Shown here piece after piece: positions 1,830 to 33,372 of a DNA stretch of 64,000 bases. A program made the translations under genes and the position numbers. Each line of letters starts with the position of its first letter. The stretch's first letter is position 1. Origin of the DNA: Owenia fusiformis (Eukaryota > Annelida > Polychaeta > Sabellida > Oweniidae); contig CAIIXF020000003.1 in the NCBI GenBank assembly GCA_903813345.2, positions 24,505,248 to 24,569,247 on the forward strand. Direction: 5' to 3'. Below the pieces are notes generated by a model that worked only from the letters and a program-made list of their open reading frames with translations, searched no databases and was not told where the DNA came from.

Positions 1830-2898
1830 CTAATTTATCATGGATGAGTTGGGATCACCAAAGGGATATAAGTCAATTTTATCTTGTTGCGTTTTATCAA
1901 GTGTTATATCATCCACAATTAACTGAATGGTTTCATTGAATTGATGACGATTATTCATTCTTATGGGGCAGCTAAAAATAAATGTGTAAAGGTCTCAGGT
2001 GACCTGCACTCACAATTTGGCGAGTCAACATTATTCCAATTATGAGATATCAATTGGGTCTTCAGGATAAGACCAGCTCTGGCTCTGTTGAGGTACATTT
2101 CTTTTATGTTAAGGGACAGAGTAGATATTATCCCAGGGAACATTCGTATTTCTAATCTCCTTTTAAAAGAGGCTAATGAAGGAAGGGACTTCAGATCAGG
2201 CTGATCACGTTGGAGATGGTTCCAGATCTCGACCATCTAGTAAATTGGTGATTTTCTAGGATAATAAATTGGCATAATATATTCTCTGTTAAAACGTGTA
2301 TTTTCAATATTTACTCTTTTATAATGAATGAATATGTCATGTATATATGATTGAATGAGGGTGTTGTGAACTTTGTACATAAAGTTCTTGAAGTGAAAAT
2401 TTCTACAATCATGTAAGCAAAACCAATTAAAAATTTTAAATACTTTACAGGCACTAGAACTTACCAGAGCTCCAGACACAATAAGACCAGCTTGGTACTG
2501 TAAACTACTAAAGTTTTTTCATGTCAATTTGGTTTGCGCCATCGTAAAGAATATTGCAGTAGTCAAAAAGTGACTGGATATAGACATTATACATGATATT
2601 GAGATGTTTGGACATCAGTCTTCCTTTACGAACTTTCATTGGATTAAGAGCTGTCTGAATCTTAGAGACTAAATATTTGATAGCTTATTGTCAAAGTAGT
2701 AGCCAAGATGTTTATGAGTGTCAGTTCTCGTAATTGCATGACCATTTAACACAATTTGGGGATAATTGTTCTTTGATAAAATCAACTCTGCTTTTCTCAG
2801 TGGCCTAAATTCAAGTTTCAGGATATCAGACCAATTTTCTACCTTTTGAATATCATTTTGGAGTTGAGTGTGAGATACGTGGTCATTTGGATATTGAT
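1830..2898 (-). mobile_element. LINE 3' fragment (reverse transcriptase C-terminal half)
   Basis: Minus-strand translation gives the post-catalytic part of a Jockey/CR1-type non-LTR reverse transcriptase. LQNDIQKVENWSDILKLEF and NGHAITRTDTHKHLGYYFD (2669-2905) match the region just after the catalytic motif. Next comes a segment with YKVHNTLIQSYIHDIF (2237-2479), then SFKRRLEIR, YLNRARAGL and a Cys-rich CECRSPETFTHLF tail (1961-2236). The final codons run to a TAG at 1830-1832. The frame changes at least twice and stops separate the blocks, so it is dead. An inverted-repeat element interrupts the copy on its 5' side, and more reverse transcriptase lies at 3472-3600. Confidence 0.8.
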
Positions 2899-3352
2899 GT
2901 ATCATCAGTTCAAATTTATTATAATGTCTGTCAACCAGCGTCTATAATATAAATAATGTCATTTTTGTTTCAAAACAGGTTTTCAACATTTGCAAAAACC
3001 AAGTTTTATTGTCAACTTTATTTACATAAACAAACGTTCAATATGTCCACCATTTTGATCAATTGGTTCAATATGTCCACCATTTTGATCAATTGTAGCC
3101 CTTAAGGTTGGCCTTAACTGGTCAATAGCATCATTGATTTGCTTTTGAGACAATAAATTTCACTTTTTAATAATTCTGTTTGATCAGTTTAAGCCAAAAT
3201 TGAGGGCTAAAATTGATCAAAATGGTGGATATATTGAACATCTGTTTGGTTTTTGCAAGTTTTTGAAAAGCTGTTTTGAAACAAAAATGATGTCATTTAT
3301 ATAATGGACGCTGGTTAACAGATATTATGATAAATTTGAACTCATGATGTAC
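2899..3352. mobile_element. MITE with about 105-bp terminal inverted repeats, inserted in a LINE
   Basis: The left arm (from 2899, GTATCATCAGTTCAAATTTA) is matched by the reverse complement of the right arm (ending 3352, GTACATCATGAGTTCAAATT), and the match continues through AACCAGCGTC, TCATTTTTGTTTCAAAACAG and GCAAAAACCAA. The interior holds two adjacent copies of GTTCAATATGTCCACCATTT and a further inverted match at about 3205-3240. No coding sequence. It lies between two LINE fragments; the catalytic YxDD segment expected between them is missing. Confidence 0.75.
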
Positions 3353-3471
3353 TAAATTAAAGATGAGTAAATTATATATCCACTGGTATATAATATGACA
3401 TGTTTTCATCAAGAAAATCAATATTTATTTTTGAAATATGAGTGTCCCATTTTTGGACCACCCTGTATATA

Positions 3472-3600
3472 GTTGTCCAGGGATGTTTTATTTTATATGA
3501 CTTACCATTTATTGTGACCTTTATTTCTCTATTAGAGAGATATGAGGTAATAAAATTCAAAAGATTTACAGAAAAGCCATTTGCTTTCAGTTCAGTTTAA
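3472..3600 (-). mobile_element. LINE fragment, upstream reverse transcriptase segment
   Basis: The minus strand encodes LLNFITSYLSNREIKVTI followed by NGKSYKIKHPW, the palm-region motif (SYLSNRxQxVxxNG) that precedes the GVPQG block of Jockey/CR1-type reverse transcriptases. It is the 5' neighbour of the LINE piece at 1830-2898. At about 3471 it is cut by the terminus TACAGGGTGGTCC of a mariner-type MITE (about 3353-3471), and the next roughly 60 residues of reverse transcriptase are absent. Confidence 0.7.
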
Positions 3601-4680
3601 CATTGGAAACAAGAAATCTCCCAGATATTTACAAATAAGAAACTATTCCCAAAACACAAGAATTAAATAAAGATAAAGAATTTGAAAGTTTTACTCTCGA
3701 CAAATCCCAGTGCAGGGGATTTATTAAATGTGTTATTTGATGTTTGTTATTTTCTAGAAAAGATAATAAATGGATCGGTTCTTTGATAGATCAGCTCAAA
3801 GTGAATTTGAAATTTCCCTTGATATATCATTGGCTTTTATATTTGAAGGAAAGCATAAAAGGGTGTGGCAATCACAATTGCAGCGTAGGTTAAGATTAAC
3901 ACAAAATGTAACCGTCTGATTTTGAAGTAACATTCTCATTTATGATGGAATCTTTGGGAATTCTTGTGTGTAGATTACCAGTATTCAATATGTGAGACAC
4001 TGGGTTATAGCTAAATAAATAAATGAATTTTAGATTTTGAGAAAGAATGTTTTCTGTATATGCATCCACATATGTAAAATAGTCCAAAATATTGAAGATG
4101 CAATTTTCTTAATTTTGAATCTTTTTTAATCATAAATACTCTTTATTTCATTTCAAAGATTCATAAATAAATTAACATCATATTCATTGGGTAATCACTC
4201 AGAAAGGGCATTTCCCCTGCTGATTGAATTCTGAATACATGGAATACATTCATATACATTCACAAATAAATGTGATAGAGGGTTGCAGTCGCATTTTGTG
4301 TCATCGTGTATTTTGCACTTACTTGTATATTTAAGACAGTGCTTTGTGCAACTAAAGTCTAATTATGGTATCAGACATCTTAAACTTAAAGTGTTGTGAC
4401 ATCATGTCTATCTGTGATGAAGGTTTACTACTCATCTGTAAGATGTATGAATAATATTAATTTGATTCATTTTCTCCCTTCGCATACACAGCGATGAAAA
4501 GTAGAGGGAGTTGGATATCCATTCAGTGTCTTTTCAATACATCCTGTAGGGATCAAAGCTGCAGTGTATCACCAACTTTTTGTTGGATGTAGACTTCGCT
4601 TCAAATTGAAATGACTTTCAATACTGCACAAGAATATATAAAGAAATATACAATCTTAGCATTCATATTCTGTTTTATGC
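3601..4680. other. AT-rich DNA, nothing recognised
   Basis: A 63-codon minus-strand open frame at 3896-4087 has no recognisable motif. It may be more of the 5' part of the neighbouring LINE, but I cannot show it. Confidence 0.4.
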
Positions 4681-4685
4681 ATCTT

Positions 4686-5345
4686 TATCCCATCAAACAA
4701 AGTTGGGAGGATATAGAGAATGGCTCTGTCCGTCCATACTTCCGTCCCTCCGTCTGTCCTGAGTGAGGTAATAACTGAAATACCATTGGACAAAATTAAT
4801 TTATATTTTATAGATTTATGCTCCAGAAATACAAGTTCTGCTCTCAAGCTGATTTTTGAAATAACCGGTGGTTTCAAAATGGCCTTTATTTAGTGTCCAT
4901 TTGACAGTGTTTTTTGGAACAACATGAAAAACTGTAGTATCAATATGTTTTAAATGCTAAGTATCATATATTCATTGAGTTGAAAATCTAAATATTTAAA
5001 AAACATGGTGACCATCTTGAAAATGGAGGACATTCACTCACCTATTTTACAACTGTTGCTGTAACTGGAAAAAGCCACCATTTTTACATGTTTTATTTCA
5101 TGTTTTTATTGAACCTTGGGTGCTATATTGTGATCATTTGTTGTGTTTTGGGCATCCCAATAGATCTTGTTTTACTATAATTCTAAAAGAAGTGAAGTGT
5201 GAATAAGCATGGCACACTGTCTGATGACACTTTTAGGGCACCATTTTAAAAAATAGGTGCCTTGTTACTTGTGTTATTTTACATTTTTACTATAACTAAA
5301 AAAGAGGTGGAGCCATTTACGAGTGCATTTAACATTTTAACTTTG
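4686..5345. repeat. CCGTCC-type dispersed repeat, degraded copy
   Basis: Starts with TCCCATCAAACAAAGTTGGG, then GATATAGAGAATGGCTCTGT, a degenerate CCGTCC tract and AATAACTGAAATACCATTGG, followed by diverged core units (GCATGGCACACTGTCTGATG). The order matches the better preserved copy at 46551-47580. Non-coding. Confidence 0.7.
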
Positions 5346-6345
5346 ACAGTTCCATTGCTACTGCTTGTTTGATTCTATTTAAAACACATGAACTAATCTT
5401 CAAAAATTTGTGGTACTAAATTTATTTATTTTTTAAAGTAGGGTTGTCATTTCCTTGCTTGTATTTGCTACATTTTGGCCTATGACATTGTCTAGGGTGC
5501 CTCAACAGTCTCCGTGCCTTCATACTTCATTTTTGATGATGAACATCTAGAGATTTTATTCAGAGGAAGTAATCCCCCGTGAACTGTGTCTGATTAGCTT
5601 CAACTAATCATTTGAAGCCTTACATCTTCTTGTTGTTATACCCTTACTTCTCTATTAAACTCTGGCCTATAATACATCAATAGCTAACCTCTTTTAACAT
5701 GCATTGACAATAGTATATAGCTTATTGTCCTGTTATTTGCTGTTTGAGTAAAATACTCAAAACAGTAATTACAAAGCAGCGATGTCTTTCATTAGAGGGA
5801 TTACATGTACACAAAAACATTACTAACTTTTGAAGATTGTAATGAACATACTTGTACACACAGGAGTGAAATAATTAAAGGGAATGTACAGGAGTCCATA
5901 ATCCAATTTATCTCCTAAAAGGTGAATAGTAGTACAGCAACTTTGAAATTAAAACCTAATTAAAGCTATTTTACTGCATGATAATCATAAATGTTATTAA
6001 ACGCCCTATCCTGAATGGTGTGTGAGGGAGTTTTAAATACTCCGTGTTTTGTAAGCTCATCTCACAAAGAAGTAGTATGGTCTTATCTAAACGAAGTGGA
6101 AGGGGAGTGTTAAATAATTGGTCCTTGTGTGTAAGATCATTGTTTGAGGTGTTGGGATTTTTGAAGGAAGGCAATCGGAATGATTTTACATATTTTAGGT
6201 GATATCAAATTCTTAAAAGTAGCCATCTGAAATTATAAGTACACCATTACTTTTCATTATGAGTCTAGAAATCCATTTCAAAGATTCATTTCAGATCTTG
6301 AAGAGTAAGTTTTTCTTAGTAGTCAAATCACTAATGGGTTTCTAA
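5346..6345. other. AT-rich DNA, nothing recognised
   Basis: No feature that I can support. Confidence 0.4.
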
Positions 6346-6375
6346 CATGGTGATAGTTCGCGATCATATATATTC

Positions 6376-7481
6376 TTAGATTTTCGGCACACAGACTAAT
6401 ATGGACGTTCTAAAAATTTTGATCCGCATTGCCAAGCGCGAATCGCACTCCTTCATGGTGAAAATTCAAGATGGCCGCCAAAAATATCGTCAAATATGTA
6501 TATTTTTTTGATAATTTTTTTTACTACCTTAATTTCAATAAAATGTGATAAATTAGTGTCTTCAGGTATTATCAAATAATATTCCTACCAAATGAATTTT
6601 TTATTAAGTATAAACATAAGAAATTGCTTTAATAGCGCCATCTTTTGATAAAATTATACCAAAATTGACGTCAAAATAACAAATATTTCCCTTATTCACT
6701 ACTTCTTTTCAATAAAATTTGACAAGTTTATATTTTATCAAGGCTTACTGATAATATTCAACATATATCCGTCAAAATATTTCATTATAATCAATAAAGA
6801 AGAGTGTTGGGTAGCCCCACCTATAGGTATATATGCATTGAACTGCTCTGAAACATAAATTAATGATTATTATTTTATTCATGCTGACCCAATTTGCTTA
6901 TTCTTAAATAACTGTTGTAATGAAAATGTTAGATTTTCGGCACACAGACTAATATGGATATTTTAAAGATCTCAATCCGCATTGCCAAGCACGATTCTCA
7001 CTCCTTCGAGGTTAAAATTCAAGATGGCCGCCAAAATAATCGTCAAATAAGAATATTTTTTTGATAATTTTTTTTTTCTGCTTTTATTTCAATAAAATGT
7101 GATAAATTAGTGTCTTCAGTTATTATTTAATAATATTCCCACCAAACAGTTTTTTATTAAGTATAAATATAAGAAATTGCTTTTACAGCGCCACCTTTTG
7201 ATAAAATTATACCAAAATTAACGTCAAAATAATAAACAATTCCATTATTCACTTCTTCTTTTCAATAGAATTTGACAAGTTTATATTTTATCAATGCTTA
7301 GTGATAACATTCAACATATATCTGTCAAAATATTTCATTATAACCAATAAAGAAGAGTGTTGTGCAGCCCCACCTATAGGTATATGCATCAAACTGAAAC
7401 ATAAATTAATAATATTTATTATTATTTTATTCATGCTGACCCAATTTGCTTATTCTTAAGTAACTGTTATCTGGAATAAAA
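6376..7481. repeat. 553-bp direct tandem duplication within the left arm of element 1
   Basis: Two consecutive copies, 6376-6928 and 6929-7481, both starting TAGATTTTCGGCACACAG and both containing AAGATGGCCGCCAAAA, AAATGTGATAAATTAGTGTC and AAGAAATTGCTTT. They differ at scattered positions, so the duplication is not very recent. The right arm carries only one such unit. Confidence 0.85.
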
Positions 7482-7747
7482 ATGTTAGTGTTTCTAGATT
7501 CAACAACATGTAAGTTGTAGAAAGTAGAAATGAGAGTTATATGAAGGGGGAGGGGGTATGTAAGTGGGGATAAGGTTTGTGGGTATATATTGAGGCATGT
7601 CACCCATCTTGATTTTCTGAGTGTTTCTGCACTCTGAAGTATAACAGAACTGTATTACAATTTTCTTCATTTTAGTTATATTGAAGTCAGTTTAAAGTCT
7701 AATATTCATTGTCTCTCATGTTGACGTGTATAAAGTCAACAAATTAT

Positions 7748-9290
7748 ATCAACCCAGACCAAACACCTGTACTTGCTGCCGAACAGCCCCTCTTTGCACT
7801 GTTCAAGCAGTAATAGTGGACAATGGCAAGAGATGGGAGAAAAAACGAAGCTGATAAGGATACTTGGTGGAATACACACTGAGATGGGAGCATTTCACAT
7901 CTTGGGCAATCTACGAGAGAATACTTGGATGGATAATCTCCCTCTCTCAAGCTGGCATAGCCACATCTGGTACAGCTGATTCCTTTATCAAAGTTAACCA
8001 ACTCGCACTAACTTGCAGAGCACATCATATTTCTGCCTGTAGTCTTTATATTCTTGACAAAAAAGCCTGTGAGACACATTGTTTGTGCTGTGATATCGAT
8101 GAATAACCTCAGTTTGAGTTGGATGACTGCGGGTGAAAAAACAGTCCCAGCAGAATGGCTCTTCCCAATTTAAGTTCTGGTCGATGGTAATGGATCTTAA
8201 ACTTTTAAGAGGGCAACTTCAGCCTATACAAATATACCCTTTCTGAGTTGTTGCCATGCCTTTTTATACTTAATCACACAAACAAGTCAAGGTGGCTACC
8301 AGTTTTATCCGTGACATGAACCAATTTAATGCAACACACCAATCAGTGCTTGGTGAATTCACTAAGGGAAACTAAACATTGATTAAAACAACAAGGCACA
8401 TGACATGAACGAAATCATACCATCTAGACATTGTTTTGGACAGTTATGAAACTACATGTAACAGTTTAGAGTCTGGTATAAGAAATAAGAGAGGAAACAG
8501 TAAAACGAGGCATATTTATCCTGAATATTCCCTACCTAGAAACTGGCAAGATTGTTTGTGCTTGGAGTAAAACAAGAGAGAACTGTTTCAAATCCTTACT
8601 GCAAATGTGAGCAATATAATTATTCATGAACGAAAAAGACTTCTCGCAACCTTTGATCAGGATGTCATGTGTCAATCCACAAAAACAATCCACCAAAGAC
8701 AAATAACCTTGCACACAATCAACACATTTTTTCTGAATGAACCAATATGAGTTGAATTTGACAAAGGGGAGACAGTTCAGGTACTTGGCAGCACATGAAA
8801 TGGCGAATTCCATTGGGCCTCAAAAAGTCTATGTCTGCCATTATTCCACTCATTGACAAGTTACACCTGGATTTCATGGAAGCAGGGGCAGAATTATAGC
8901 ATAGGACAGATGAAACTCATTTTCACAACTGATGAATGCACTCCTCAGTCTAATAGATGATCCTTTATTAATGTTATGTTGCTGTATGATAAATTCAGCA
9001 ATGACACCTCAATCAACACTGCAAGAAAGAATACATTTTTAGAAGACTACTTCATTATTGACCACATTCCTCCAACAGCTGACGCCTTAATGCAACACTG
9101 CAAGGGAGCATTGTATCAAGGTGTGCATATCTGGGGTCAGTTTAACAAACCAAGTCCTATCATTCCCCGGGTATCATTCCATCTCCAAAGAACTGGGGCT
9201 GGAGAACAGAGCCAAGAGACAACACTTAGAAGCCACACAGGACTACCTTAAAGCAGATGGCTGATGCTAGTCAACCATTAGTGTGGTTGT
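7748..9290 (+). pseudogene. Decayed gene of a large CXC-linked transposon-associated protein family
   Basis: Reading in shifting + frames gives, in the family's order: INPDQTPVLAAEQPLFALFK (from 7748); LGGIHTEMGAFHILGN (about 7860); QAGIATSGTADSFIKVNQ (about 7950); FWSMVMDLKLL (about 8175); SRWLPV (about 8287); RNWQDCLCLE (about 8538); FRYLAAHEMANSIGPQK (about 8770); IPPTADALMQHCKGALYQGV (about 9070); IPSPKNWGW (about 9177). These match blocks I know from a very abundant 'uncharacterized' protein of molluscs, cnidarians and fishes whose C terminus usually carries a cysteine-rich CXC domain. Function is not established. Many stops and frame changes make it inactive, and the CXC end is missing here. 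It lies centrally between the inverted repeats of element 1. Confidence 0.7.
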
Positions 9291-10140
9291 CAGAAGCAGT
9301 GTTTCCCATGAAGATGTACCATGTACCAGCTTGAAGGCTACTCTAGTATGCACATCATTGTGTGCCTGCAATGGAGAGTATTCATTAGAATAACTAAAGT
9401 AAGGGTTTAAATATGGTAATACAAGGCCCATATAAGATGCAAGATACCCCATATTTACCCCCCCCCAAATTTATATGGTTGACATCTTAGAGTTGGCATT
9501 CTACTGTAAAATAATACTATAGAATAGTTTTTATTATGCATGGTACATGATACAGATCAAATCTTGGCTCTCCAAACTATTACACGCTTCCTTCAACAGT
9601 TCAATATATTATAAAACACAGTTTTGATTTTGAACAATTTCACCAATAGGTGGCGCTATGGGAGACATTCTTCATTATGTGTTTATCTAAATATTGTTTG
9701 GAAAGGAATCAGTTTCTATTAAAACATACAAACCTAATATATTCTGATGAAAAAAGGATAAAGATATGATAGGTACAGTACTACAGTATATATGAAATGT
9801 ACATATTTTAATGGTTTATCGAGAATTTGGACGAAATCTTAAAAATGGGGGGAATGAACAACCAAAATCTTCTTTTTTGATAATTTAAATATTTTTCAGG
9901 GTAGAAATATTATAAATTGATGTTGAAAAATACTAATTAACCACATTTTATTGAAAAAAAGGAATGAAAAAAATTATCAAATGAATATTATATAATTGTC
10001 GGCAATTTCGGTGGCCATCTTGGATTTTCACCAAGAAGGAGTGCGAACCGCGCTTGGCAATGCGGATCAAAATTTTTAGAATGTCCATATTAGTCTATGT
10101 GCCAAAAATCTAAGAATATATATGATCGCGAACTATCGAG

Positions 10141-12321
10141 CCATTATTGACTGGGCTATAGGATGTACATCCAGACCTGATCACATGTAGTTATTTGACA
10201 AGCTGGTTGTTTTTGTTCTTCAAATGCAATATGTGTGTCTTGTTTACTTCTAATTCCCTTTGTTCTTATTACTAACATTTATTACATTAATCCATATTCT
10301 AAATGACATTTGGTTCCAAATCTGATTTTGTTCAAAATGCAATTTAAACAATATTAGCTTGATTGATATAGATTGATCACCCTGTATGAATCTATGTATA
10401 CTTAAAATGACATTTACCACGGAAAGGTCACTGAAAAAATTATGGATTGATGCAGTAATGAATAAATTGATTGCATTATATATTTTTGTCAAATCTTAAA
10501 ATGACCGGATCCGTCTTTTATATTACATCAAACACTAATATTTCATCTTATCTTGATCGATTTCTAGTTATTTCAATTTTACTAAGCTATGAGAAAATCC
10601 CTGTCTTTTATCTAGTTATAAGTCATTATCATTTGCTTATCAATCATGGAATTGATACTCATCTGAACCAACATCAGTTTCAAGCTACAAAAACGATCAA
10701 AGGATTTCATCAGAATACTCTATTCAATGTTGCCTTCCTGACTGATGACAGCTTGCTTATATATTTGATATTTCTATACAGAGTTCATTGATAAAAAGTT
10801 ATTTCGAACTCGTTTACAAAGTCCATGTGACCAGATCCAAAAATCCTGTAAACAAGCTTAACGAGCATTAAATGTCTTTGAATTAAACCTAGGGAATTAA
10901 CAACTCATAAAAAATCTGTTTATTCTTCTTTTTTACTATTATACACAGCAATCAATGATATTTATCTCTGGTATGCAATATAATACCCGACATCCAAATC
11001 TCTGGTAATTTCAATTCCAATTTGATATTTTATACCTCATGTAGAGGCTAGGCCTAGAGAATGTTGAATGATTGATTCTTGTCATTTTTATAATATTTTT
11101 CCAAATTAATTTTAGAAACAATTGAAACATTGAATTTTTCAAAATTCTCAAGTGGCTGACTGGATTCTAAATTAAAGAGATAAGGATAATTCTTAAAACA
11201 AGAGAACAACTCCAGAAGATAGGTATAATTAGGTTCAGCTTAACACCTTATACCCTATTGGCATTAAACATTCTGTGCCTTTTGTAGCCCATATTTGTAA
11301 ACATTAGAAACAGTTCAACATACGGTAAGAACCAATGGATTATGAACATTTACAATTCATTGTGCTGAAAGGGAATGAGTCAAGCCAAAGATGACTGGTT
11401 CTCATGGGAATGGGAATGCTATACTATAAATGCTGGTAACAAAGTGTAACTTGAGGGTCTGGATTGAGAATGAGCATTTAAGTGCTTAGAACAACTATTT
11501 TAAAATGGTTGATTAAACTTGCATGAGTCCCCTGCTGAAAAGATAAAAATTTATGAAAGACTGAACATGATTAGAAATCACAAAGGGATTTTTTTAAACA
11601 TGAACAAGTGAGCAGTTGCAATAATTCAGCAACTTGAGGGATAAAGTTTAGTTTAATATATGTGTTAAATTGTCTTTCTAAAAATAGTTGTATTTAAAGG
11701 CTGTGACACAATTCAAATAAGATTGATGTTTTTAGTGAAATGGTTCAAAGGAAAACTGCCAAAAGTTAATGTGAGATATTAGGCTGTTGGTTCTAATAAG
11801 TGAGTTACAAAATGAATTTAGAAGGCATCTAGAAAAAATATCCTTTGGGTATACATGTACACATTCCTAAATCAATCAGCTCAGTTATCATCTTCATTTG
11901 ATTAAGAAAAATTGTATACCTGGCCTTAAAATGTTGTGATGTTTGCATTTCACACGATTTCCACACAAATTTTAATGAGTTGTGTTGTGTGATTTGTAGG
12001 TTTTCTTTGAAATCAAGAGTGTTAATTACCCTACCAGTTATCTTACTCTATATCTTTATATTCCAAGTTTGAATCATATATCAATGATATCAATCATTTG
12101 GGAAATAAGCAATTTTTCTTTAGCTCTTGGGTATTGTTTAAGTTTGGTTATGGATCATAATTCTTAATTTGTCACTTTTGGGGCCTTGAATATTATTTAA
12201 AGTGCCTACAGGATGACCATAACTATTGTAAACTTTAATCTAGCCCATTTTCTCGCAGAAACCTAATCTAATGATTATAAATACACAAAATTGATTTCAA
12301 CATTGGTAACCACAACAACCC
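10141..12321. other. AT-rich DNA, only a solitary mariner-type end
   Basis: The motif TCACCCTGTA near 10377-10386 resembles the terminus of the TA-flanked MITEs elsewhere in the window, but no partner end is visible. A + strand open frame at 10471-10791 has no recognisable motif. Confidence 0.35.
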
Positions 12322-12384
12322 ATGTCAAGCGTACCGGGAGCAGTAAAAAAAGACAGAAAATATAATGCTGACTGCGTCTACAAG
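12322..12384 (+). CDS. Candidate first coding exon (21 codons), unknown gene
   Basis: An ATG in good context (ACAACCATGT, A at -3) opens a frame of 21 codons that ends exactly at AAG followed by GTAAGT, a consensus 5' splice site. The peptide starts MSSVPGAVKKDRKYN and continues ADCVYK. The next exon candidate begins in phase 0, 118 bp downstream. I do not recognise the product. Codon use is mixed and less AT-rich than the surroundings, which favours real coding. Against it: the exon is very short and no third exon could be identified. Confidence 0.45.
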
Positions 12385-12502
12385 GTAAGTAAATTCCATT
12401 ATAAGCAACATTGAAAATTGCATGCCATTATGCAATACACTTTTCAACATTCTTACTGAATCATTGTTCTTGTATTAAATGTCCCATTCTTGGCTCTTTC
12501 AG

Positions 12503-12532
12503 GATCTCACAAGTGTCATTCGCAAGTCCAGA
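12503..12532 (+). CDS. Candidate second coding exon (10 codons), unknown gene
   Basis: A 30-nt segment preceded by a good acceptor (TTGGCTCTTTCAG) and followed by GTAAGT. In phase with the candidate first exon it adds DLTSVIRKSR. Both flanking splice sites match consensus, and the reading frame is kept across the 118-bp intron. The next exon is not visible; a possible 18-nt segment after GCCGTACAG at about 12582 is too weak to call. Confidence 0.4.
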
Positions 12533-13424
12533 GTAAGTAGATCACTTCATCCTCGATTAGGATAATGCGCCTTGCCGTACAGCAACAACCTCCAAAGCAG
12601 GTGTCCAGAATCCTTACCTCCTTCTTCCCCCTGCTATAACCAAAGAAAATAGACTAAGTCTGCAACATCAAATATAGACCTTTCAAATAATCCTTGTCAC
12701 CTTTTGATACATCAAAGGAGTTATGATGTATTATTGGCTAGATTGATGTCAATTGGTTGTAGATAGGGATATGTCAAAGCAAAAATAGGAATAAGTTATT
12801 AATAATTTTGAAAAAGTACATCCAATAACATCATCAATTTCACCAATTTATCACAGCATCTTTGATCACCAAAAGGTGAAAGGGTTTATTGGAAAGGTAT
12901 ATTAGACAGGTGGCCAGTTCTATTTTAGGAAAGAAATTCTTCCTTCATGCTGGCGATATAAAGAGAAATCTTCAAAAACAGTTGTATGGAATAATGTCTG
13001 ATATGAATAACATTGACTGGTATTTCATTTACCGCTTCCCTACACAGGTCAACTCATATGTCAGAAATGTTACGATAAGTCTTAATATTTTGACTAACCC
13101 ATTTACTATACTCTCACTGCCACTACCATTTTTGTCCTTTGCAACACAATCCTTCAGGCCATGTCTTCAGAATATTATGACCACAACTTTTGATATGAAC
13201 TTATATATTGGTTCATTTTCAACTGAATATATGACATATTTACAATGGGCCATCATATTTCATACTTATCATTTTGAAGTATTCAAACCTCATCACAATT
13301 TTTTCACTTGGCACCTTTTGAGGTGGATCCCGGCTATGGCATTAATGGTTGAGAAATAGGGATCGAAACCAGCCATAGTTTTCTCCTGATGACCATTGTG
13401 AATTGTTGTGTTTTATGGATTATG
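12533..13424. other. Putative intron or intergenic DNA with one unexplained open frame
   Basis: If the two upstream exons are real this is intronic. It holds a + strand open stretch of 156 codons (12889-13359) that begins at TTG rather than ATG and has no recognisable motif, so I do not call it a gene. Confidence 0.35.
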
Positions 13425-13866
13425 ATGACGGCTTTGCGAACGGATGTTGACCCTTTGAATTGCCTATGGACTTCGAGTCTGGATTTTATCTATCCCACAT
13501 CATTTGAGACTGAATACTTTTTTTACTCTTTGAATACTCTTTTATGAGTACAAGTATCTACAACTATTTTTGATGTTACGAGTATTGGCTATCAATTTTT
13601 TCAATTTTTCTTCAACATGTATTGTAATGACTTCAGTATGAATGAAATGTCCCTTGGTTTTCTGGTCCTGGATTGTGATATTTGTTCTCGATTGGAGGGG
13701 GGAGGGGGATGTTAGACATTGTTTCTTTTCACGTTAGATTATGGTTTTGGGATATATAGGGTCTACTTTTCTTATGACAGATTTACACTTACAATTTACT
13801 TTTCTTATTAGGTTTCTTTAAAGTTTTTAGTCACCCTTCCCTTTGGCATTCGTGCTTATATATATT
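13425..13866 (-). repeat. TAAGCAC interspersed repeat, longest copy (about 440 bp)
   Basis: In minus orientation it runs from a TATA-rich start with TAAGCACGAATGCCAAAGG, through AGAAACAATGTCTAACATCC, a C-rich CCTCCCCCCTCC tract, TCACAATCCAGGACCAGAA, TACATGTTGAAGAAAAATTG and ATAGTTGTAGATACTTG, to AAAGGGTCAACATCCGTTCG. At least 12 further partial copies lie in this window in both orientations. No tRNA head, coding sequence or clear inverted termini, so it remains unclassified. Confidence 0.75.
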
Positions 13867-14984
13867 TATAAAAACTTACAAGATTTCATCGCAGCTTCAT
13901 TCTTATCTCAACAGTTTCTCATTAAAATATCCTTGGTTTTAATTTTTTAAATTCTAAAAGAAGTACTGTAATGGTAAACTCTTGTTACTTTCATGTATTC
14001 AAGCTTAATAGAAAACTTTTAGGAATAATTTGGAAAATGCATTTTGATCATTGGGAAATGCTATTTCTTACAGTTGTCATATTCTAATCCTAGCTCATAT
14101 ATCATTCTTGTCATTTTGTAAACATTAATGTATATATTATCACTCTGATACGATTTTATTATTTTGTCATTAAATTTTCATGATATACAAATTGAAAAAA
14201 TCTCATCCCAGTATTTTTTATGGATATACATTAATGGTTTGTCTCAATAAACAAATCATCTTCAGCCAGATAACTATGAAATGTAATAAAAAACGATAAT
14301 TCCTTAATGGATCTTACATTGATTATTAAGCTATTTTACAATATGATAGATGATTGGGAAATCACAGCGTAATGACACTTCTAACATACTTAAGCTTAGA
14401 TATACAATAAGAAGGGGTGTCACATCCTGTCCCTGGATATTATGTTTCACCCAAGCTACCCCTGCGATATTTTCAACAAGTATATATGGTCTAGAAAAGT
14501 GATATTTTTTATCTTTGTATTTAAAAAAAATTTTTTTGATATGCAACATGAATTTAAATGTTGAGTGCATACTTATATTTTGTGGGACAGCCAGTAAAAC
14601 AACGAAGTGTTCTGTTTTTCCCAGGTATTCCCAAGATCATATACTTTATTGAAATGAGAAATGTTTCCTGTCATTTTAATGATTACTCATTTGGAAAGCT
14701 TGTGTGTACTTTAAACATAATAAGGGAATTCAGGTATTAAGCTTATAACTCATTATAGCCAAAGTGTGTACTCTATTCATTATTATTTTATAAGGGTATA
14801 TCATTTAACAATCTAAAGGACTTAAATGCTAGTCCCAAATCTGTGTTGGACAATTTTGTATTTTATTAATGGTGAATGTGTTGAAATCTTAGCTGCACAA
14901 ACTTCAATCCTGAGGTATTCATGGATGGTTGTTGAAAATAATTGTGTCATATCTTCTGATATATATCTTCATATATTGCTTTAT
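13867..14984. other. AT-rich DNA, nothing recognised
   Basis: No feature that I can support. Confidence 0.35.
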
Positions 14985-15059
14985 AGACTGGAAGCATTGA
15001 CTGTGGTGTTTCCCAGGGCTTCATACCAGGCCTATTGATGTTTTATATGGACAGTACTG
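14985..15059 (+). mobile_element. Old LINE fragment, reverse transcriptase palm (left part)
   Basis: The + strand reads TGSIDCGVSQGFIPGLLMFY, the SI(D)CGVPQGSxLGPLLF block of non-LTR reverse transcriptases. The catalytic YxDD follows in another frame but is split by a later LINE insertion and resumes at 16031. Old and degraded. Confidence 0.7.
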
Positions 15060-15072
15060 TGTTTATACTGAT

Positions 15073-16017
15073 TTTATTTTATTTTATTTTTTTTTTAATA
15101 AATTTATTTCTGATTTCATAAACATATCCATAGAAATAGTGCATCTGATACATAATACCATACAGAAATATACATGATATAAAAGGATATAGGATTCAGA
15201 GATAAACATTTATTTGAGGATTATTGAAAGCCATTTAACAAAAGGAAGTTCACTATCAATCCTTAAAAATATATGTTTATAATATAAAATATTTCTACAT
15301 ATTTAGATCAAGTTTAGATCAATATTTTTCCATTTTTCAATTTCTTCTGACAATTCACACCACTTGGTGTAAATTGCTAAACAGATTATTGTAATAAGAA
15401 TATTTCTGAAGTGGGTTATGTTGTTTCCTAAAGGCCAACAAATGATTAAATGTTTATATTTGATATGACATTTTAGAATCTGACTAAATTTTTCCCATAT
15501 TGGGGTGACCTTTTTACATTCAAAAAGCAAATGTTTTGAAGTATGTCTGCATTTACAAATGCAGCAAGAACTTTGAATATTACTGTTCCACTTCGAAATC
15601 ATATCTCCACAAGCAAGTAAATTGTTTAAAATCTTATAATTAAATTCTGCAAAGTATCTATAGTTAAGGTTTATAGTTTTTTGAAGGTAAATATTGTTCC
15701 AGATTTTTTTATCTTGAATATGAAATTCTTTGTTGCATTTAAACTCATTTATGTTTTTTTTCAAATTTGAAGTTAATTAATTCATTGTAAAAGAATTTTG
15801 CTTTCTTATCAATTAAATCAACATATCTGTTTCCGATAAAGAACGTCTTTCTGTTTTTAAAAGTATTTAGGTATTTGAGTTTTGTTTTGTCAAAATTTTT
15901 ACACAAAGACATTATTACTTTTTTAATTACACTCAACTCAGAGATCCAGTTTCTCTTATTTTTAAGTGATTCAAGAAAAATATCTTAACTTTTAAAATTG
16001 CCATCATTCTCAAAATA
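15073..16017 (-). mobile_element. 5'-truncated LINE insertion with 13-bp target duplication
   Basis: A complete insertion of 945 bp flanked by the direct repeat TGTTTATACTGAT at 15060-15072 and 16018-16030. On the minus strand it ends in an A-rich tail (the T-rich run from 15073). It encodes the C-terminal end of a reverse transcriptase: an upstream piece at 15745-15936, then a 153-codon frame at 15303-15764 with CCICKCRHTSKHLLFECKK, a reverse-transcriptase-associated zinc-binding motif, and a PIWEKF segment. This suits the L1/Tx1 side of the LINEs rather than the Jockey/CR1 type at 1.8-3.6 kb. The two pieces are in different frames. Severe 5' truncation is usual for LINE insertion by target-primed reverse transcription. 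Confidence 0.85.
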
Positions 16018-16030
16018 TGTTTATACTGAT

Positions 16031-16060
16031 GACACTCACACTTTTAAACTGATGTGACCC
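16031..16060 (+). mobile_element. Old LINE fragment, right part completing YTDD
   Basis: With the target duplication counted once, the old LINE reads CVYTDDTHTF, the catalytic YxDD motif. The right part continues a few codons (TFKLM) to a stop. It pairs with 14985-15059. Confidence 0.65.
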
Positions 16061-16314
16061 CAACCCTTCAGTGAACAGAACTTTGGTCAAGAAAATAGTA
16101 AAAAGAATTATCTTTAATTTAACAGGGAAACCAATCAAACATTTGTTGTTAGGTTTTTGAGAAATAACGAACACCCTCCTATCCCTGCTGCTATTTCAAG
16201 TTAGTTAATCAATCTAAGTAAATTTAAAGTTTGTTAACTCCACACTTTCAAAACAAGAAGCAACTTTTGTTTTTCATGGATCAGTCTGAATTTATAGTTA
16301 TTTAGGATATATAG

Positions 16315-16376
16315 ATATATAAGCACTAGTGCCAAAGAGAAAGGACCAAAAGTTGTAATGGAACTTAGCAAACATT
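16315..16376 (+). repeat. TAAGCAC interspersed repeat, short 5' fragment
   Basis: ATAAGCACTAGTGCCAAAG and AAAAGTTGTAATGGAACTTA match the start of the family. It stops abruptly just before long-inverted-repeat element 2. Confidence 0.75.
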
Positions 16377-16599
16377 TTATAGACAAAATGTCAATGTCTG
16401 GTGCCTATGTAAACTCATCTGACATCATCTAGTCCCTGATCTGGACCCTCTGAAAAAAAGTTTTGTTGTCCGGTACTTTCCCACATAAAATGATTGTACC
16501 GTTTGAAAGAACAGACTTCCCTCTTAAAGAAAACCCCTCTTCTATTGATGTAAACAGGGGCAAAAGGCACCAAAACGGGGTTAGACAAGGTGGCATTCT

Positions 16600-17330
16600 G
16601 AAGTCTCACTTTCTTGTCATCACGATTCCAGGTAAACCATCAGACGGATTTACTTCAAGTTTTCACACATGTTACATGGTAAGAAGTTCTACAACTGATT
16701 AACTTTGCGGCGGCCATCTTGCATTCTGGCGGCCATCTTTGAAATTTTTTCAGATAAATATTGTCATCACGATTCTACAAAAACCACATAACAGATGTAC
16801 TTTAAATGTTCACTCATGTTACATGGTAAAAAGTCCTAGGCCTCATTATTTTTTCGGTGGCCATCTTGCATTCTGGCAGCCATCTTGGAAGTTTTAAGAT
16901 AAATCTTGTCATCACGATTTCAGGAAATCCAAACGGATTTACTTCAAATTTCCACACATGTTACATGGTAAGAAAATATAGAGGTGAATAACTTTTCGGC
17001 AGCCATCTTGCATTCTGGCGGCCATCTTGGAAATTTTTGGATAAATCTTGTCATCGTGATTCCAGGAAAACAGATTAACTTCAAATTTTCACACATGTTA
17101 CATGGTATGAAGTACTAGAGCTGATTAACTTTTCAGTGGCCATCTTGCATTCCATCGGCCATCTTAGAAGTTTTTAGATAAATCTTGTCATCACGATTCC
17201 ATAAAAACAACGTAACAGTTTTACTTCAAATTTTCACACGTGTTACATGGTAAGAAGTTATAGAGCTGATTAACTTTCCGATAGCCATTTTGCATTCTGG
17301 CGGCCATCTTGGAAGTTTGTAAATAAATAT
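16600..17330. repeat. Left-arm array of about 145-bp units (five copies)
   Basis: Each unit carries CTTGTCATCACGATTCCAGG, CACACATGTTACATGGTAAG, CTGATTAACTTTTCGG and GCGGCCATCTTGCATTCTGG. GTTACATGGT recurs near 16670, 16820, 16960, 17100 and 17240. Units differ by roughly 10 percent by eye. A single fragment of the same unit lies at 63124-63190. Confidence 0.9.
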
Positions 17331-17339
17331 AAAATACAG

Positions 17340-17807
17340 TCAAAGCATTTACCACCAACAAAGGATGCTCTCATTCTCCATATAAATAGAGCCAACTATC
17401 AGGCTTATATTTGGCGAAACGCAGACAAATCAATGATTGATTATCAATCCCCCACATTACATGGTTGGACATTCAAAGGGAATAAACTACAAATTAAGTG
17501 GATGGAAAACGGTCCTGCCCCACAAGAAATAATGGAGCTTGTTGCTTGTAGTTGTAAAGGAGCGTGTGACTCAATGAGATGTAGTTGTAAGAAACAGGAT
17601 CTCATTTGTGGAAGTTCATGTAAGTGCCGCAAAGGTGTGTGTGAGAACTGTCCAACCCATCAGCAAGATGATGTTGATGAGAGCGACAATGAATTTGAAC
17701 CAGTTGATGACACCATTACACCAAACGTTGAAGATCAGGAAGAAAATGAATTACCTGAAAATCTCTTACCTGACAACTGGATGAACTTGTCAAAGTTGAT
17801 GCCATAA
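17340..17807 (+). CDS. C-terminal exon of a CXC (Tesmin/TSO1-like) domain protein
   Basis: The frame is open for 155 codons from an acceptor-like AAAATACAG at 17331-17339 to a TAA at 17805; the first ATG is at 17433. Residues 4-25 (LPPTKDAL, RANYQAYIW) are the conserved linker of the same family as the decayed gene in element 1. Residues 70-104 form the CXC domain: CSCKGACDSMRCSC, then GSSCKCRKGVCENC, the Cys pattern of TCR/Tesmin DNA-binding zinc motifs. An acidic tail follows (about residues 110-141). It has no internal stop, unlike the copy in element 1. Role is inferred as DNA or zinc binding for a transposon protein; a host gene captured between the repeats is the alternative. Upstream exons were not found in the element. 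Confidence 0.65.
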   Translation, partial: SKHLPPTKDALILHINRANYQAYIWRNADKSMIDYQSPTLHGWTFKGNKLQIKWMENGPAPQEIMELVACSCKGACDSMRCSCKKQDLICGSSCKCRKGVCENCPTHQQDDVDESDNEFEPVDDTITPNVEDQEENELPENLLPDNWMNLSKLMP

Positions 17808-17837
17808 TATGAATTATCTCACCCTGTATATACACTG

Positions 17838-18310
17838 GTGATCCGCTCGATTACAGGTACGATTTGTCCTTATTCCTTATTTCATGCGTTGTAGGCAGAA
17901 TCCTCTCAACGTTTTTTCTCACAAACGTGAATCAGTATCATATGTCTTAGAAAATGAACATGTTTGCGAAAAATAGCTCAGAAGACGACAGAATCGTCGA
18001 TTTAATTCCTAACTTAAGTTACATAAAGGTTTGGATTAAAAGTGCAGATCTGAACTGTTTTTTCGAAATACCGTTTATATAACTTAAGTGAGGAATTAAA
18101 TGTACGATTATGTTGTCTTCTGAACTATTTGTTTGCAAATATGCACATTTTCTTAAACATATGATACTGATACACGTTTGTGAGAAAAAATGTCGTAGGA
18201 ATTCTGCCTACAAAGTGTGAAAGGAAAAAGGAAAAATCATACCTTCGATGTTCCCACATTTTGTTACCGAAACAAACCGTTTAGGTAACCAGCATTATCG
18301 AGTGGATCAC
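17838..18310. mobile_element. Foldback MITE, copy 1
   Basis: Ends GTGATCCGCTCGATTA and its near-complement TTATCGAGTGGATCAC. The two halves are inverted copies over most of the element: TAGGCAGAATCCTCTCAACG against CGTAGGAATTCTGCCTACA, AGAAAATGAACATGTTTGCG against its complement at about 18135, and TTAATTCCTAACTTAAGTTA against TAACTTAAGTGAGGAATTAA. The left half lacks about 45 bp (the TTTCGGTAACAAAATGT block) that the right half keeps. Non-coding. A second copy is at 61135-61460. Confidence 0.85.
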
Positions 18311-18428
18311 TATAATATACTTTAGTAGTCTTTAATAATGTTAGGGAGAATGAGTTGTAAGGCATACTATGTCATGTTAGATCATGATCTATACTATTTT
18401 TATTACAATTTACCAGTTACACTTTCTC

Positions 18429-18485
18429 CATGCTAGGTTCTGTTATAACTTTTGTTCCGTTTCCTATGGCATCCGTGCTTTATAC
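18429..18485 (-). repeat. TAAGCAC interspersed repeat, fragment
   Basis: TTATAACTTTTGTTCCGTTT and TGGCATCCGTGCTTTATA, on the minus strand of the family's start. It lies inside long-inverted-repeat element 2. Confidence 0.6.
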
Positions 18486-18530
18486 ATTTACATTCACAAT
18501 GGTCCCTTCCTGGTATATTTTTTTAGGTTT

Positions 18531-18653
18531 TATGACTGTTAAATTCTATAGTCTTGTTAAGACCACTTTATAAACAGTTTTATTATTACTTTTATGACTG
18601 TTAAATTATATAGTCTAGTTAACACCACTTTATAAACAGGTTTATTATTACTG
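18531..18653. repeat. 62-bp tandem dimer
   Basis: TATGACTGTTAAATTCTATA and CCACTTTATAAACAG occur twice, starting at 18531 and 18593. Only two copies. Confidence 0.8.
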
Positions 18654-18840
18654 GTGTAACTAACACAACGAAAAAAAATATAATTAATTTATTTGATTTT
18701 ATATAACATGAAATTATTTTTTCTTTTCGATAAAACATTGCTTATTAGAAATATATTTAGTTGAAAACTTAGAGTAAACAATCAGTTCTTCTATCACAAA
18801 GTTTATTTTGGTTCAGTAGATCTTTCTATACATTATTTTT

Positions 18841-18965
18841 ATGTCACCACCACTAGTGATTGGGTGACATATTGTAATAGCTTCGAACGTTTATCTTGAC
18901 ACTGTTCAGTAGTTAATGTGTACTGTATACTTAACAAGGTGTGGTGACATTTTGCATGTTTCTGC
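18841..18965. repeat. GTGGTGACAT repeat family, short member
   Basis: Starts with the hairpin-forming ATGTCACCACCACTAGTGAT followed by GGGTGACATATTGTAATAG, and ends GTGGTGACATTTTGCATG. The family recurs at 26922 (expanded), 40110, 48281, 51529 and 55655. Confidence 0.7.
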
Positions 18966-19234
18966 ATCGTCACTTCTATTGAAAGCTTATGTTGATATTG
19001 TAGCAGTGTTTTTTAAGTTCTTTTTGTTGGTACAATTAGTTTCCAAACCCTATACTTATATCGATCTGACAGTGTTTTTTTTGATTATTAAACGCAAAGA
19101 GCACATGTGTCTCGAACTCGCAACATTGTGGATACAGAGCCCATTCACATAGTTTGACATGCTGGTGCTCTGAACCAGCTCGTTAGATAATATCTGACTA
19201 AGAGACAGCTTGCTTTCCCGATTAAGAAATGTTA

Positions 19235-19555
19235 TCTGCAGCTTTTATGAGTACTATAGTATCTACAACTATTTTTGATCTTATGAGTATTGGATATCAT
19301 ATTATTTTCAATTTTTCTTCAACATGTATTTTAATGACTTCAGTATGAATGGAATGTCCCTCGGAGTTGTGGTCGTTGATGAGGAATTGGTCATTGAACG
19401 GTGTGGATGCTGTTTATTCCCATATTAGATTATTGTCTTGGGATATTCAGGTTTGATTTTTGTTTGCCAGTTTTACACTTTACAGTTTGCTTTTCCCACT
19501 AGGTTGCTTTACACTTTTTTCCTTTCTCATTTGTCATTTTTGTTTACATTTAGTA
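19235..19555 (-). repeat. TAAGCAC interspersed repeat, partial copy
   Basis: Contains ATCTACAACTATTTTTGAT, TTCAACATGTATTTTAATG and TTTACAGTTTGCTTTTCCC, in the order of the longest copy at 13425. A later fragment lies within long-inverted-repeat element 2. Confidence 0.7.
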
Positions 19556-19904
19556 AGGATATGATACGCAGGTCTCTCCTTCTATGTGATCACCTGTCCA
19601 GAAGATAATTCAACTGCATGAAGAACATTTCGTTGACATGATGCACAGTGAAAGGTTTTCCACACATTTACATTTCGTTTAAAAGAGCTTTAATTCCGTT
19701 ATATACTCAGATCAAGGCCAATTTAGCATACATTTCGCTCTCAAAAATCACTGTGCAATAATGGATTTCAAAGAAATGTTTGACGTTTTCAATAATCTTT
19801 TTTCTTTTTGATGAAATGTAGTTATTTATTCTAAAAATCAATCGATGTCATACACAAAATGCAATAAAGTGGTATAAAGTACAGAAGCAGAGTAAAAATA
19901 TGTA

Positions 19905-20550
19905 TTTTAGAATATCACCATGTGTTACCCCATTGTAGCGCCTCTTGCCCATGTTTCTATCAATATAAAACATGATATCATACACCAAATATGCATTTAT
20001 GTCAAATTATGTGGTTTAAAATACAGAAAAATAGACAATATTCTCCTTAGAATACCACCTTGTGTAACCCCACTTTACTGCCTTTTGCCCCTGTTTATAT
20101 CAATATAAAAGGTAGCATGTAACATTCCTTGTAACATGTGTAAAAGTTTCAAGAAAATCAGTAAAGTGGTTTTCCTGGAATCACAATGACAAGATTTATC
20201 CAAAAAACTTCAAAGATGGCCGCCAGAATGCAAGATGGCCACCGAAAGGTTAATTAGCTCTAGAACTTCTTACCATGTAATATGTGTGAAAATTTGAAGT
20301 AAATCCGTTTGGTTTTCCTGAAATCGTGATGACAAGATTTATCTTTAAACTTCCAAGATGGCTGCCAGAATGCAAGATGGCCACCGAAAAAATAATGAGG
20401 TCTAGGACTTTTTACCATGTTACATGTGTGAACATTTGAAGTACATCTGTTATGTGGTTTTTGTGGAATCGCGATGACAATATTTATCTGAAAAAAATTC
20501 CAAGATGGCCGCTAGAATGCAAGATGGCCACCGCAAAGTTAATTAGCTCT
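19905..20550. repeat. Right-arm array of element 2 units
   Basis: Units in inverse orientation to the left arm: ACCATGTAACATGTGTGAAA recurs near 20270, 20415 and 20560, with GATGGCCGCCAGAATGCAAG beside each. Outside these, TACCACCTTGTGTAACCCC with CCCCTGTTTATATCAATA occurs twice (about 19915 and 20055) and again near the terminus at 20645, so the right arm also holds extra subterminal copies. Confidence 0.8.
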
Positions 20551-20841
20551 AGAACTTCTTACCATGTAACATGTGTGAAAATTTGAAGTAAATCCGTCTG
20601 ATGGTTTACCTGGAATCGTGATGACAAGAAAGTGAGACTTCAGAATGCCACCTTGTCTAACCCCGTTTTGGTGCCTTTTGCCCCTGTTTACATCAATAGA
20701 AGAGGGGTTTTCTTTAAGAGGGAAGTCTGTTCTTTCAAACGGTACGATCATTTTATGTGGGAAAGTACCGGACAACAAAACCCCTTTTCTAGAGCCCTTT
20801 TGGAAATCAGATCGGGGACTAATCCTAGATGCTGTATTTAA

Positions 20842-32101: not shown

Positions 32102-32357
32102 CCAGTTTGTCAAGTTGTTGTGCGACAAATAATTAACGGATTTACAGACTGGAACAACCACGGGGTCGTAAGTAAGAATATTTTGTTGAGTAATTGACGA
32201 AGGATTTTCGATCAAATATCATCACAGTTTGTCTATTTTTTTAGCCTGGACATTTTGAACATTGTTTTAGAGATTCATATCGGATTGTATCTATTACTAT
32301 ATTTGCCGAGATTGTGTGTGTATTTTTATTCAATATTTTTACTCAACATTATATTGT
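32102..32357. other. Spacer, nothing recognised
   Basis: AT-rich link between the mariner element and the following tandem array. Confidence 0.4.
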
Positions 32358-33110
32358 TATTTGGGAGAGTTGCAACCAACTTTGCAACCCCATATTCAAT
32401 TCAAGGATATTTGGGAGAGTTGCACCCAACTTGCAACCCCATATAGGTGCAAGGGATATTTGCACCCATTATAACCACCTGGAGTACATTTTGGAGAGTT
32501 GCAACCAAATTTGCAACCCCATATCGGTGCAAGGGATATTTGCACCCACAATAATCAACGGAAGGACTTTTTGGAAAGTTGCACTCAATCTTGCAACCCC
32601 AGGAGATTTGGGAGAGTTGCACCCAACTTTGCATTCCCATATTGGTGCAAGGAATATTTGCACCCATAATAACCATCTGGAATAGGTGTAAGGGACTTTT
32701 GGGAGAGTTGCACCCAACTTGCAACCCCATATCGGTGCAAGGGATATTTGCATCCATAATAACCACCTGGAATAGGTGTGAAGGACTTTTGGGAGAGTTG
32801 CACCCAACTTGCAACCCCATATCGGTGCAAGGGATATTTGCATCCATAATAACCATCAGGAATAGGTGTGAAGGATATTTGGATATTTAACTTGCAACCC
32901 CATCTCGGTGCAAGGGATATTTGCATCCATAATAACCATCTGGAATAGGTGTGAAGGATATTTGGATATTTAACTTGCAACCCCATCTCGGTGCAAGGGA
33001 TATTTGCATCCATAATAACCATCTGGAATAGGTGTGAAGGACATTTGGGAGAGTTGCACCTAACTTGCAAACCCATATTGGTGCAAGGGGCATTTGTACC
33101 CATGATTGCA
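32358..33110. repeat. Tandem array, about 90-bp units (eight or nine copies)
   Basis: The unit runs TTGGGAGAGTTGCACCCAAC, TTGCAACCCCATATCGGTGC, AAGGGATATTTGCATCCATA, ATAACCACCTGGAATAGGTG. Later copies are shortened (GGATATTTGGATATTTAAC). Long overlapping open frames occur on the minus strand in all frames because the unit lacks stops there; they are not taken as genes. Confidence 0.95.
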
Positions 33111-33372
33111 ACCTGGACATAGGTGCAAGGATAATAAGGACATATAACGGACTTGCACCCTGGTTAAGGAACAGGGGCAAGATGCACCTTGGTTAGGAAC
33201 AAGGGCATATAAAGGACTTGCACCCTGGTTAAGGGACAGGGGCAAGGTGTACCTTGGTAAGGAACAAGGGCACATAAAGGACTTGCACCCTGGTTAAGGA
33301 ACAGGGGCAAGATGCACCTTGGTTAAGGAACAAGGGCATATAGAGGAGTTGTACCCTGGATAGGAACAGGGC
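33111..33372. repeat. Tandem array, about 64-bp units (three to four copies)
   Basis: The unit contains GGACTTGCACCCTGGTTAAG, GGACAGGGGCAAGGTGCACC and TTGGTTAAGGAACAAGGGCA. It directly follows the 90-bp array and shares the words TTGCACC and AAGGG with it, suggesting a common origin. Confidence 0.9.

Follow-up and report, generated by a model that had tools for sequence, protein, structure and literature searches.

We have analysed a 64,000-nucleotide stretch of the genome of the annelid Owenia fusiformis (contig CAIIXF020000003.1; hereafter the window, G000:C3:24505248-24569247) together with the rest of that genome (498 Mb, 525 contigs). The window contains two elements with long terminal inverted repeats (TIRs), element 1 and element 2. 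Both are very likely non-autonomous, decayed DNA transposons of the cut-and-paste type, whose relatives encode a large protein composed of Cys/His clusters, a D-D-E-like core overlapping DUF6589, an XPG-like nuclease, and a CXC tail, and which probably belong to the AcademX lineage of the Academ superfamily. The termini, the target site duplications (TSDs), the copy number, and the long frames inside such elements are observed directly.

Elements 1 and 2 and their copies

Self-comparison places the inverted arms of element 1 at 6352-6562 and 9927-10137 (211 nt, 84% identity) and those of element 2 at 16452-17038 and 20203-20789 (587 nt, 94% identity), in agreement with a preliminary description of this DNA, which had reported two inverted-repeat elements here. 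The boundaries it had given need correction. Comparison with ten other paired copies of the element 1 arms shows that the true ends lie further out, at 6320-10158 instead of 6346-10140. Comparison with other copies sets the ends of element 2, from TAGTCCC to GGGGACTA, at 16430-20821 instead of 16424-20833. Each corrected element is flanked by a 3-bp TSD (Table 1).

The inverted repeats of the two elements had been called unrelated and their termini fast-evolving. The repeats are indeed unlike internally, but both start with 5'-TAG(T/C)C and share CAAGATGGCCGCC (see below), and the very end is held at 5'-TAG...CTA-3'. Such ends recur in the genome, with 3-bp (once 4-bp) duplications.

An exact 3-bp TSD is found in 27 of the 31 copies in which both ends were set by the family terminal sequence (10/11 in the element 1 family, 12/14 in the element 2 family, and 5/6 in a third family with the ends TAGTC(C/T)GG). 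This count derives from 32 scored rows, 27 of them exact, by removal of two mispairings (L027 from 3147 and L028 to 8512) and addition of the L057/L058 pair, which by eye has no match, as a miss; the other misses are L047/L048, L002, and L025. Random re-pairing of left and right flanks gives a match in 2.55 of the 32 rows on average and in 8 at most. A 4-bp match occurs in none of the 32 scored rows.

Searches of the genome with three arms, including the left and right arms of element 2, gave 40 scored places each, of 1532 (element 2, left), 176, and 484 (element 2, right) candidates, and the possibility that the arms are chance repeats was rejected on this ground. The 40 right ends of element 2 scored among the 484 candidates are 99-100% identical to the query.

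Both elements enclose parts of one protein family, as had been proposed. In a tblastn search with 17 family frames (E ≤ 1e-4), only elements 1 and 2 match in the window. The decayed protein blocks described for element 1 are located, with GGIHTEMGAFHILGN at 7866-7910 and FRYLAAHEMANSIGPQK at 8776-8826; the relative L016 carries GGMHTEMGAFRILGN and FRYLAAHEMANSIGPQK. A relative of element 1 on contig C4 is 8825 bp long with TSD TAA and has frames of 479, 145, and 955 aa. Element 1 matches the C4 relative in five blocks of 78-84% nucleotide identity, with ends in common. It thus represents a shorter, decayed version that contains its left end a second time in the interior. A relative on C12 (L071, 9.2 kb) is likewise decayed.

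Element 2 retains just the last part of the family protein. The LPPTKDAL...RANYQAYIW linker and the CXC domain noted earlier are contained in the open frame 17274-17804. Private changes in this frame among ten copies (450 bases) number 24 nonsynonymous, 8 synonymous, and 2 stop, versus a neutral expectation of 24.6, 6.6, and 2.7. They fit the neutral expectation, and selection for a stand-alone CXC protein was accordingly rejected. The copies of element 2 behave as passengers, with no sign of purifying selection on the CXC frame among the ten copies. Element 2 also contains an imperfect palindrome at 17880-18222, with arms of 94 nt and 57 nt.

Relatives with long open frames and the family protein

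A genome search with the element 2 CXC frame yielded 632 candidates, of which 150 were scored as matches. Identities of at least 80% are seen in 56 of these, a number that includes pieces of single copies and the window's own. Many of the 150 are divergent, and some belong to frames as long as 1622 aa. Thirteen long-frame loci, L009-L021, were taken as 10-kb pieces. Stop-to-stop frames of 1468-1622 aa are present in L009-L014, and in others the protein is split over two or three frames (L018, 982 and 556 aa, TSD TAA; L019, 505, 512, and 556 aa, TSD ATA). Inverted arms surround the frame in 9 of the 13 loci. Eight (L009, L011, L012, L015, and L018-L021) have arms by self-comparison; the ninth is L016, whose left arm lies beyond its 10-kb piece.

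Ten of these long-frame loci were checked for ends, and four have TAG ends with a duplication: L009 (TGA), L011 (TAA), L021 (GGA), and L020 (TAAA, 4 bp). The placement of the ends in these four drew in part on the duplication. L009 and L069 together make up an element of 8635 bp (1836-10470) that has TIRs of ~708 bp at 95% identity and a 1602-aa frame. It presents TAGTTAGAAACC at both ends, with short matches also at other offsets. The end search gave nothing for L010 and L017. L013 and L014 have a common start at TAGC, whose partner end was not found, and a weak end pair of L014 was dropped because alignment to L013 locates the start at a different position.

Of 483 candidates from a genome search with the XPG-like domain, 121 were scored as matches, and among these a 1526-aa frame appears at several places with near-equal scores (about five copies). 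Two of these copies (C8:34479040-34485467 and C1:31430899-31437327), picked only for the frame and not for repeats, were compared by their flanks alone. They are 99.4-99.6% identical over 2.0 kb of ends, and TAGTGGAATGGG and its inverted counterpart (TAGTGG...CCACTA) form the precise limits of the homology. The copies are 6428 or 6429 bp long by coordinates, have 521-bp TIRs at 97% identity, and are flanked by 3-bp TSDs in both cases (TAC in one, AAG in the other). The expectation of the preliminary description that family members would be flanked by inverted repeats and duplications of constant length is thus borne out in two copies of the 1526-aa family and, as far as the arms are concerned, in nine of the thirteen long-frame loci but not in the other four within 10 kb. 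Its suggestion that the protein is the transposase of a DNA transposon gains support from long frames inside precise elements with TSDs.

Alternatively, the protein could be the product of a host or accessory gene lying between neighbouring repeats. L010, L013, L014, and L017 would suit such a gene, as they have no arms around the frame within their 10-kb pieces, and so would L012 and L015, whose arms (97% and 93%) are not accompanied by duplication-flanked TAG...CTA ends. However, versions of the one protein lie within several TIR families of unlike sequence that show target duplications, the 1526-aa frame recurs together with its TIRs, and L009 contains no other frame of at least 200 aa. We therefore consider a host gene very improbable.

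The family protein starts with Cys/His clusters, read by eye, followed by a D-D-E-like core overlapping DUF6589, a FEN/XPG-like nuclease, and a C-terminal CXC domain. Among 12 core sequences, residues D207, H236, D460, and E464 are invariant, and the motifs DN.D (in all ten sequences reaching that region), T.DQ.LY (in most), and a D...E pair are recognized. These residues suggest a D-D-E nuclease core interrupted by a long insertion. No named transposase in Pfam matches the core in the proteins scanned.

Pfam assigns no function to DUF6589 (PF20231), and we found no paper on it in the literature collection searched. Two of the 12 core sequences reach E ≤ 10 with this model (best 0.00037), and eight places in the genome score above the Pfam cut-off. 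In one of them, a 2641-aa frame, the DUF6589 match continues in-frame into the XPG (E 1.2e-33) and CXC (E 1.1e-16) family profiles, and two further DUF6589 places (C11:19954101 and C3:3010745) are frames matched by family queries. DUF6589 therefore belongs to proteins of this kind and probably forms their transposase core. DUF6589 frames of 1952-2641 aa, exceeding the family frames, occur at G000:C11:14708020, C3:26995943, C5:17848263, and C1:55249787, and the frame at C11:14708020 carries XPG-like and CXC domains.

In the XPG-like domain (31 sequences), residues D85, A183, D184, and D208 are invariant, and residues D40, E182, D210, and D265 are conserved at 90% or more. A search of PDB up to E 10 with the profile returned only five Exonuclease 1 sequences (best E 0.0042; 0.015 with the profile built from 12 sequences), colinear over the two motifs VFD..S.K..R.RR and GCD..S...G.GK. 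The order of the conserved acidic residues and these motifs resemble those of FEN1/EXO1/XPG nucleases, although the domain is very divergent. The preliminary description had proposed a search for a nuclease or transposase fold; the residue pattern and the Exonuclease 1 match point to a remote similarity to nucleases, and the core has no PDB sequence match. Pfam XPG_I (10 candidates scored) matches four other places in the genome and none in L009-L021.

The best PDB match of the CXC tail is LIN54 (E 0.011), and the match to Pfam TCR is weak (8/11, best 0.048). The cysteine spacing of the tail is that of LIN54/tesmin CXC domains. In contrast to LIN54, in which two CXC repeats are matched, the family protein has one, located after the LPPT linker.

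These parts suggest how the protein might act. The Cys/His and CXC parts would bind the inverted repeats, the D-D-E core would cut beside 5'-TAG and make insertions staggered by 3 bp (rarely 4 bp), and trimming of a flap or of the non-transferred strand would fall to the XPG-like nuclease. Searches with a few short peptide patterns per query found no viral or prokaryotic relatives in viral contigs (three queries) or genome contigs (one query), and three family proteins have no PHROG match.

Relation to Academ and other transposon groups

The Academ superfamily was reportedly described in 2010 by Kapitonov and Jurka, and also in 2020 by Kojima. The nuclease of its AcademX lineage is of the XPG type, and the AcademX protein is very large. 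AcademH makes TSDs of 9-10 bp and AcademX TSDs of 3-4 bp, and the two are related to helicase and nuclease, respectively (PMC10045372). Academ is described for bivalves as amplified, with 100 curated autonomous elements of mean length 5565 bp, and as being among the longest and most numerous DDE groups (PMC10294476).

The present elements resemble AcademX in their TIRs, 3-bp (once 4-bp) duplications, nuclease within the element, and multi-kilobase length (PMC10045372, PMC10294476). In particular, the TSD is exactly 3 bp in 27/31 copies and in 2/2 copies of the 1526-aa family, TIRs are present except around the frame in 4 of the 13 long-frame loci, and the nuclease is recognized by its catalytic residue pattern in 31 sequences, at the level of remote similarity. 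The CXC tail, DUF6589, and the 5'-TAG termini are features of the present elements, and AcademX was compared by description only. On this anatomy, the elements are probably new families of an already known kind, the AcademX (nuclease) lineage. The preliminary description had proposed an under-described DNA transposon group; a DNA transposon group it is, but probably not a new one.

The helicase lineage, AcademH, was rejected. The TSDs are 3 bp, and no Helicase_C match (85 matches, 150 of 155 candidates scored) falls at the eight DUF6589 places.

Several points weigh against the AcademX assignment, besides the loci without arms or resolved ends. Conserved acidic residues are the sole basis of the D-D-E assignment, and the core matches no PDB sequence. 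The E-values lend the XPG assignment little strength, the XPG-like domain has no match to Pfam XPG_I, and in single-sequence searches of NCBIfam, the unrelated families MreC (0.0011) and BarA (0.0038) score above archaeal FEN-1 (0.011; 1 of 31 sequences). The ends of L011 and L021 come from a script that demanded TAG, CTA, and a duplication, and those of L020 were read by eye. No intact relative of element 2 was found in the genome, L022 being a partial match only. Academ membership is drawn from anatomy, the elements having been compared by description.

A separate, undescribed superfamily could resemble AcademX in its XPG-like nuclease and 3-bp TSDs and yet have a DUF6589 core not of Academ descent. 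The core, with neither a named Pfam transposase match in the proteins scanned nor a PDB match, is what such a superfamily would present. However, the nuclease, the 3-bp (once 4-bp, in L020) TSDs, and the TIRs fit AcademX (PMC10045372), and so does the very large protein; in bivalves, Academ is reported to be among the longest and most numerous DDE groups (PMC10294476). We regard a separate superfamily as unlikely.

An origin within the KDZ/Zisupton, Kolobok, or hAT groups, which have CxC domains or core insertions, is suggested by the CXC-type cysteine domain and by the long interval that separates the second D from the E. KDZ/Zisupton and hAT make 8-bp TSDs, and Kolobok makes TTAA. Neither is found in the elements here, 27/31 of which have TSDs of 3 bp, and the protein is fused to an XPG-like nuclease. 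Such an origin is hardly credible, and AcademX remains our assignment.

Table 1. Parts of elements 1 and 2 in the window
Feature	Coordinates	Strand	Basis
TSD TAG, left copy, element 1	6317-6319		flank comparison
Element 1 (3839 bp), putative decayed, non-autonomous DNA transposon with the ends TAGTCAAATC and, as reverse complement, TAGCCCAGTC	6320-10158		copy comparison
Left inverted repeat, element 1 (paired part from 6352)	6320-6562	+	arm comparison
Second, direct copy of left-end segment within element 1	6929-7715	+	78% alignment to 57-856 of C4 relative
Decayed coding remnant, element 1: DDE-region, XPG-like, and CXC-linker blocks in several frames	7718-9390	+	tblastn with L016 frame
Right inverted repeat, element 1 (paired part to 10137)	9927-10158	-	arm comparison
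TSD TAG, right copy, element 1	10159-10161		flank comparison
TSD ATC, left copy, element 2	16427-16429		flank comparison
Element 2, putative non-autonomous DNA transposon, 4392 bp, ends TAGTCCC...GGGGACTA	16430-20821		copy comparison
Left inverted repeat, element 2, five ~145-bp tandem units from 16612	16430-17331	+	arm comparison
177-aa open frame, element 2 (stop included in end), LPPT linker and CXC domain, C-terminal piece of family protein	17274-17807	+	ORF (open reading frame) translation
Right inverted repeat, element 2, 3.4 tandem units of ~147 bp	20130-20821	-	arm comparison
TSD ATC, right copy, element 2	20822-20824		flank comparison

A 13-bp motif, neighbouring sequences, and implications

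The 13-bp motif CAAGATGGCCGCC is present in the left repeat of each window element and in repeats of the third family; element 1 and the third family have it in the longer form TTCAAGATGGCCGCCA. On the right side, both window elements contain only one-mismatch versions, and in element 2 the orientation is reversed. The pattern AAGATGGC.GCC, mostly as CAAGATGGCCGCC, occurs in the window at 6467-6479, 7020-7032, 10010-10022, 16709-17311, and 20212-20532, and also in L018, L019, L023, L024, and L026. In L018 the motif is in a single arm, and the L019 match is likewise single. The exact 13-mer occurs 2987 times genome-wide, versus once for the reversed pattern, and the variant CAAGATGGCGGCC has 341 copies in the genome. 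Several motif runs among the places listed are 145 bp apart.

A universal transposase site was rejected for CAAGATGGCCGCC, since AAGATGGC.GCC is absent from six elements (L009, L011, L012, L015, L020, and L021) and the 5' piece of the 1526-aa family lacks AAGATGGC, and since the motif often occupies one arm only. It may mark a binding site that the families have in common, or it may be no more than one of many widespread repeats. We advance only tentatively, and with more doubt than confidence, the combined proposal that DUF6589 provides the catalytic core in Academ-type transposases fused to a nuclease and that three otherwise unlike TIR families share a putative 13-bp subterminal site (CAAGATGGCCGCC; TTCAAGATGGCCGCCA in two) for a host factor or for the DNA-binding domains of the transposase, with the 5'-TAG ends fixed. 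The host factor would presumably be YY1-like.

Two further arrays in the window, at 46650-47512 (~135-153-bp spacing) and 144-530 (~139-144-bp spacing), contain ATGGCCGCC or ATGGCCAC, and their period resembles that of the element 2 arms. About 4 kb to the left of the window, L026 2258-6117 (C3:24497505-24501364) is a foldback derivative of the third family with TSD TAA. Its arms are the same end of L018 in opposite orientations; L023 is similar, and L024 probably so. Elsewhere in the window, a 429-aa open frame on the minus strand at 52055-53344 looks by eye like a rhodopsin-like G protein-coupled receptor, and a repeat-like stretch at 32245-33163 has several frames open, in which peptide units recur. 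Helicase_C matches lie in single frames of 3104 aa (G000:C12:29035415) and 2559 aa (C12:1664126), possibly other large mobile elements.

With these elements as a guide, the "uncharacterised" CXC-tailed proteins of animals could be named as mobile-element proteins, probably Academ transposases, rather than host genes, which would clear false gene families from annotations. The 5'-TAG ends, the 3-bp duplication, and the DUF6589-XPG-CXC order would provide a rule for finding such elements. In addition, it becomes testable what a flap-type nuclease contributes when fused to a transposase, with several long open frames available in one genome.

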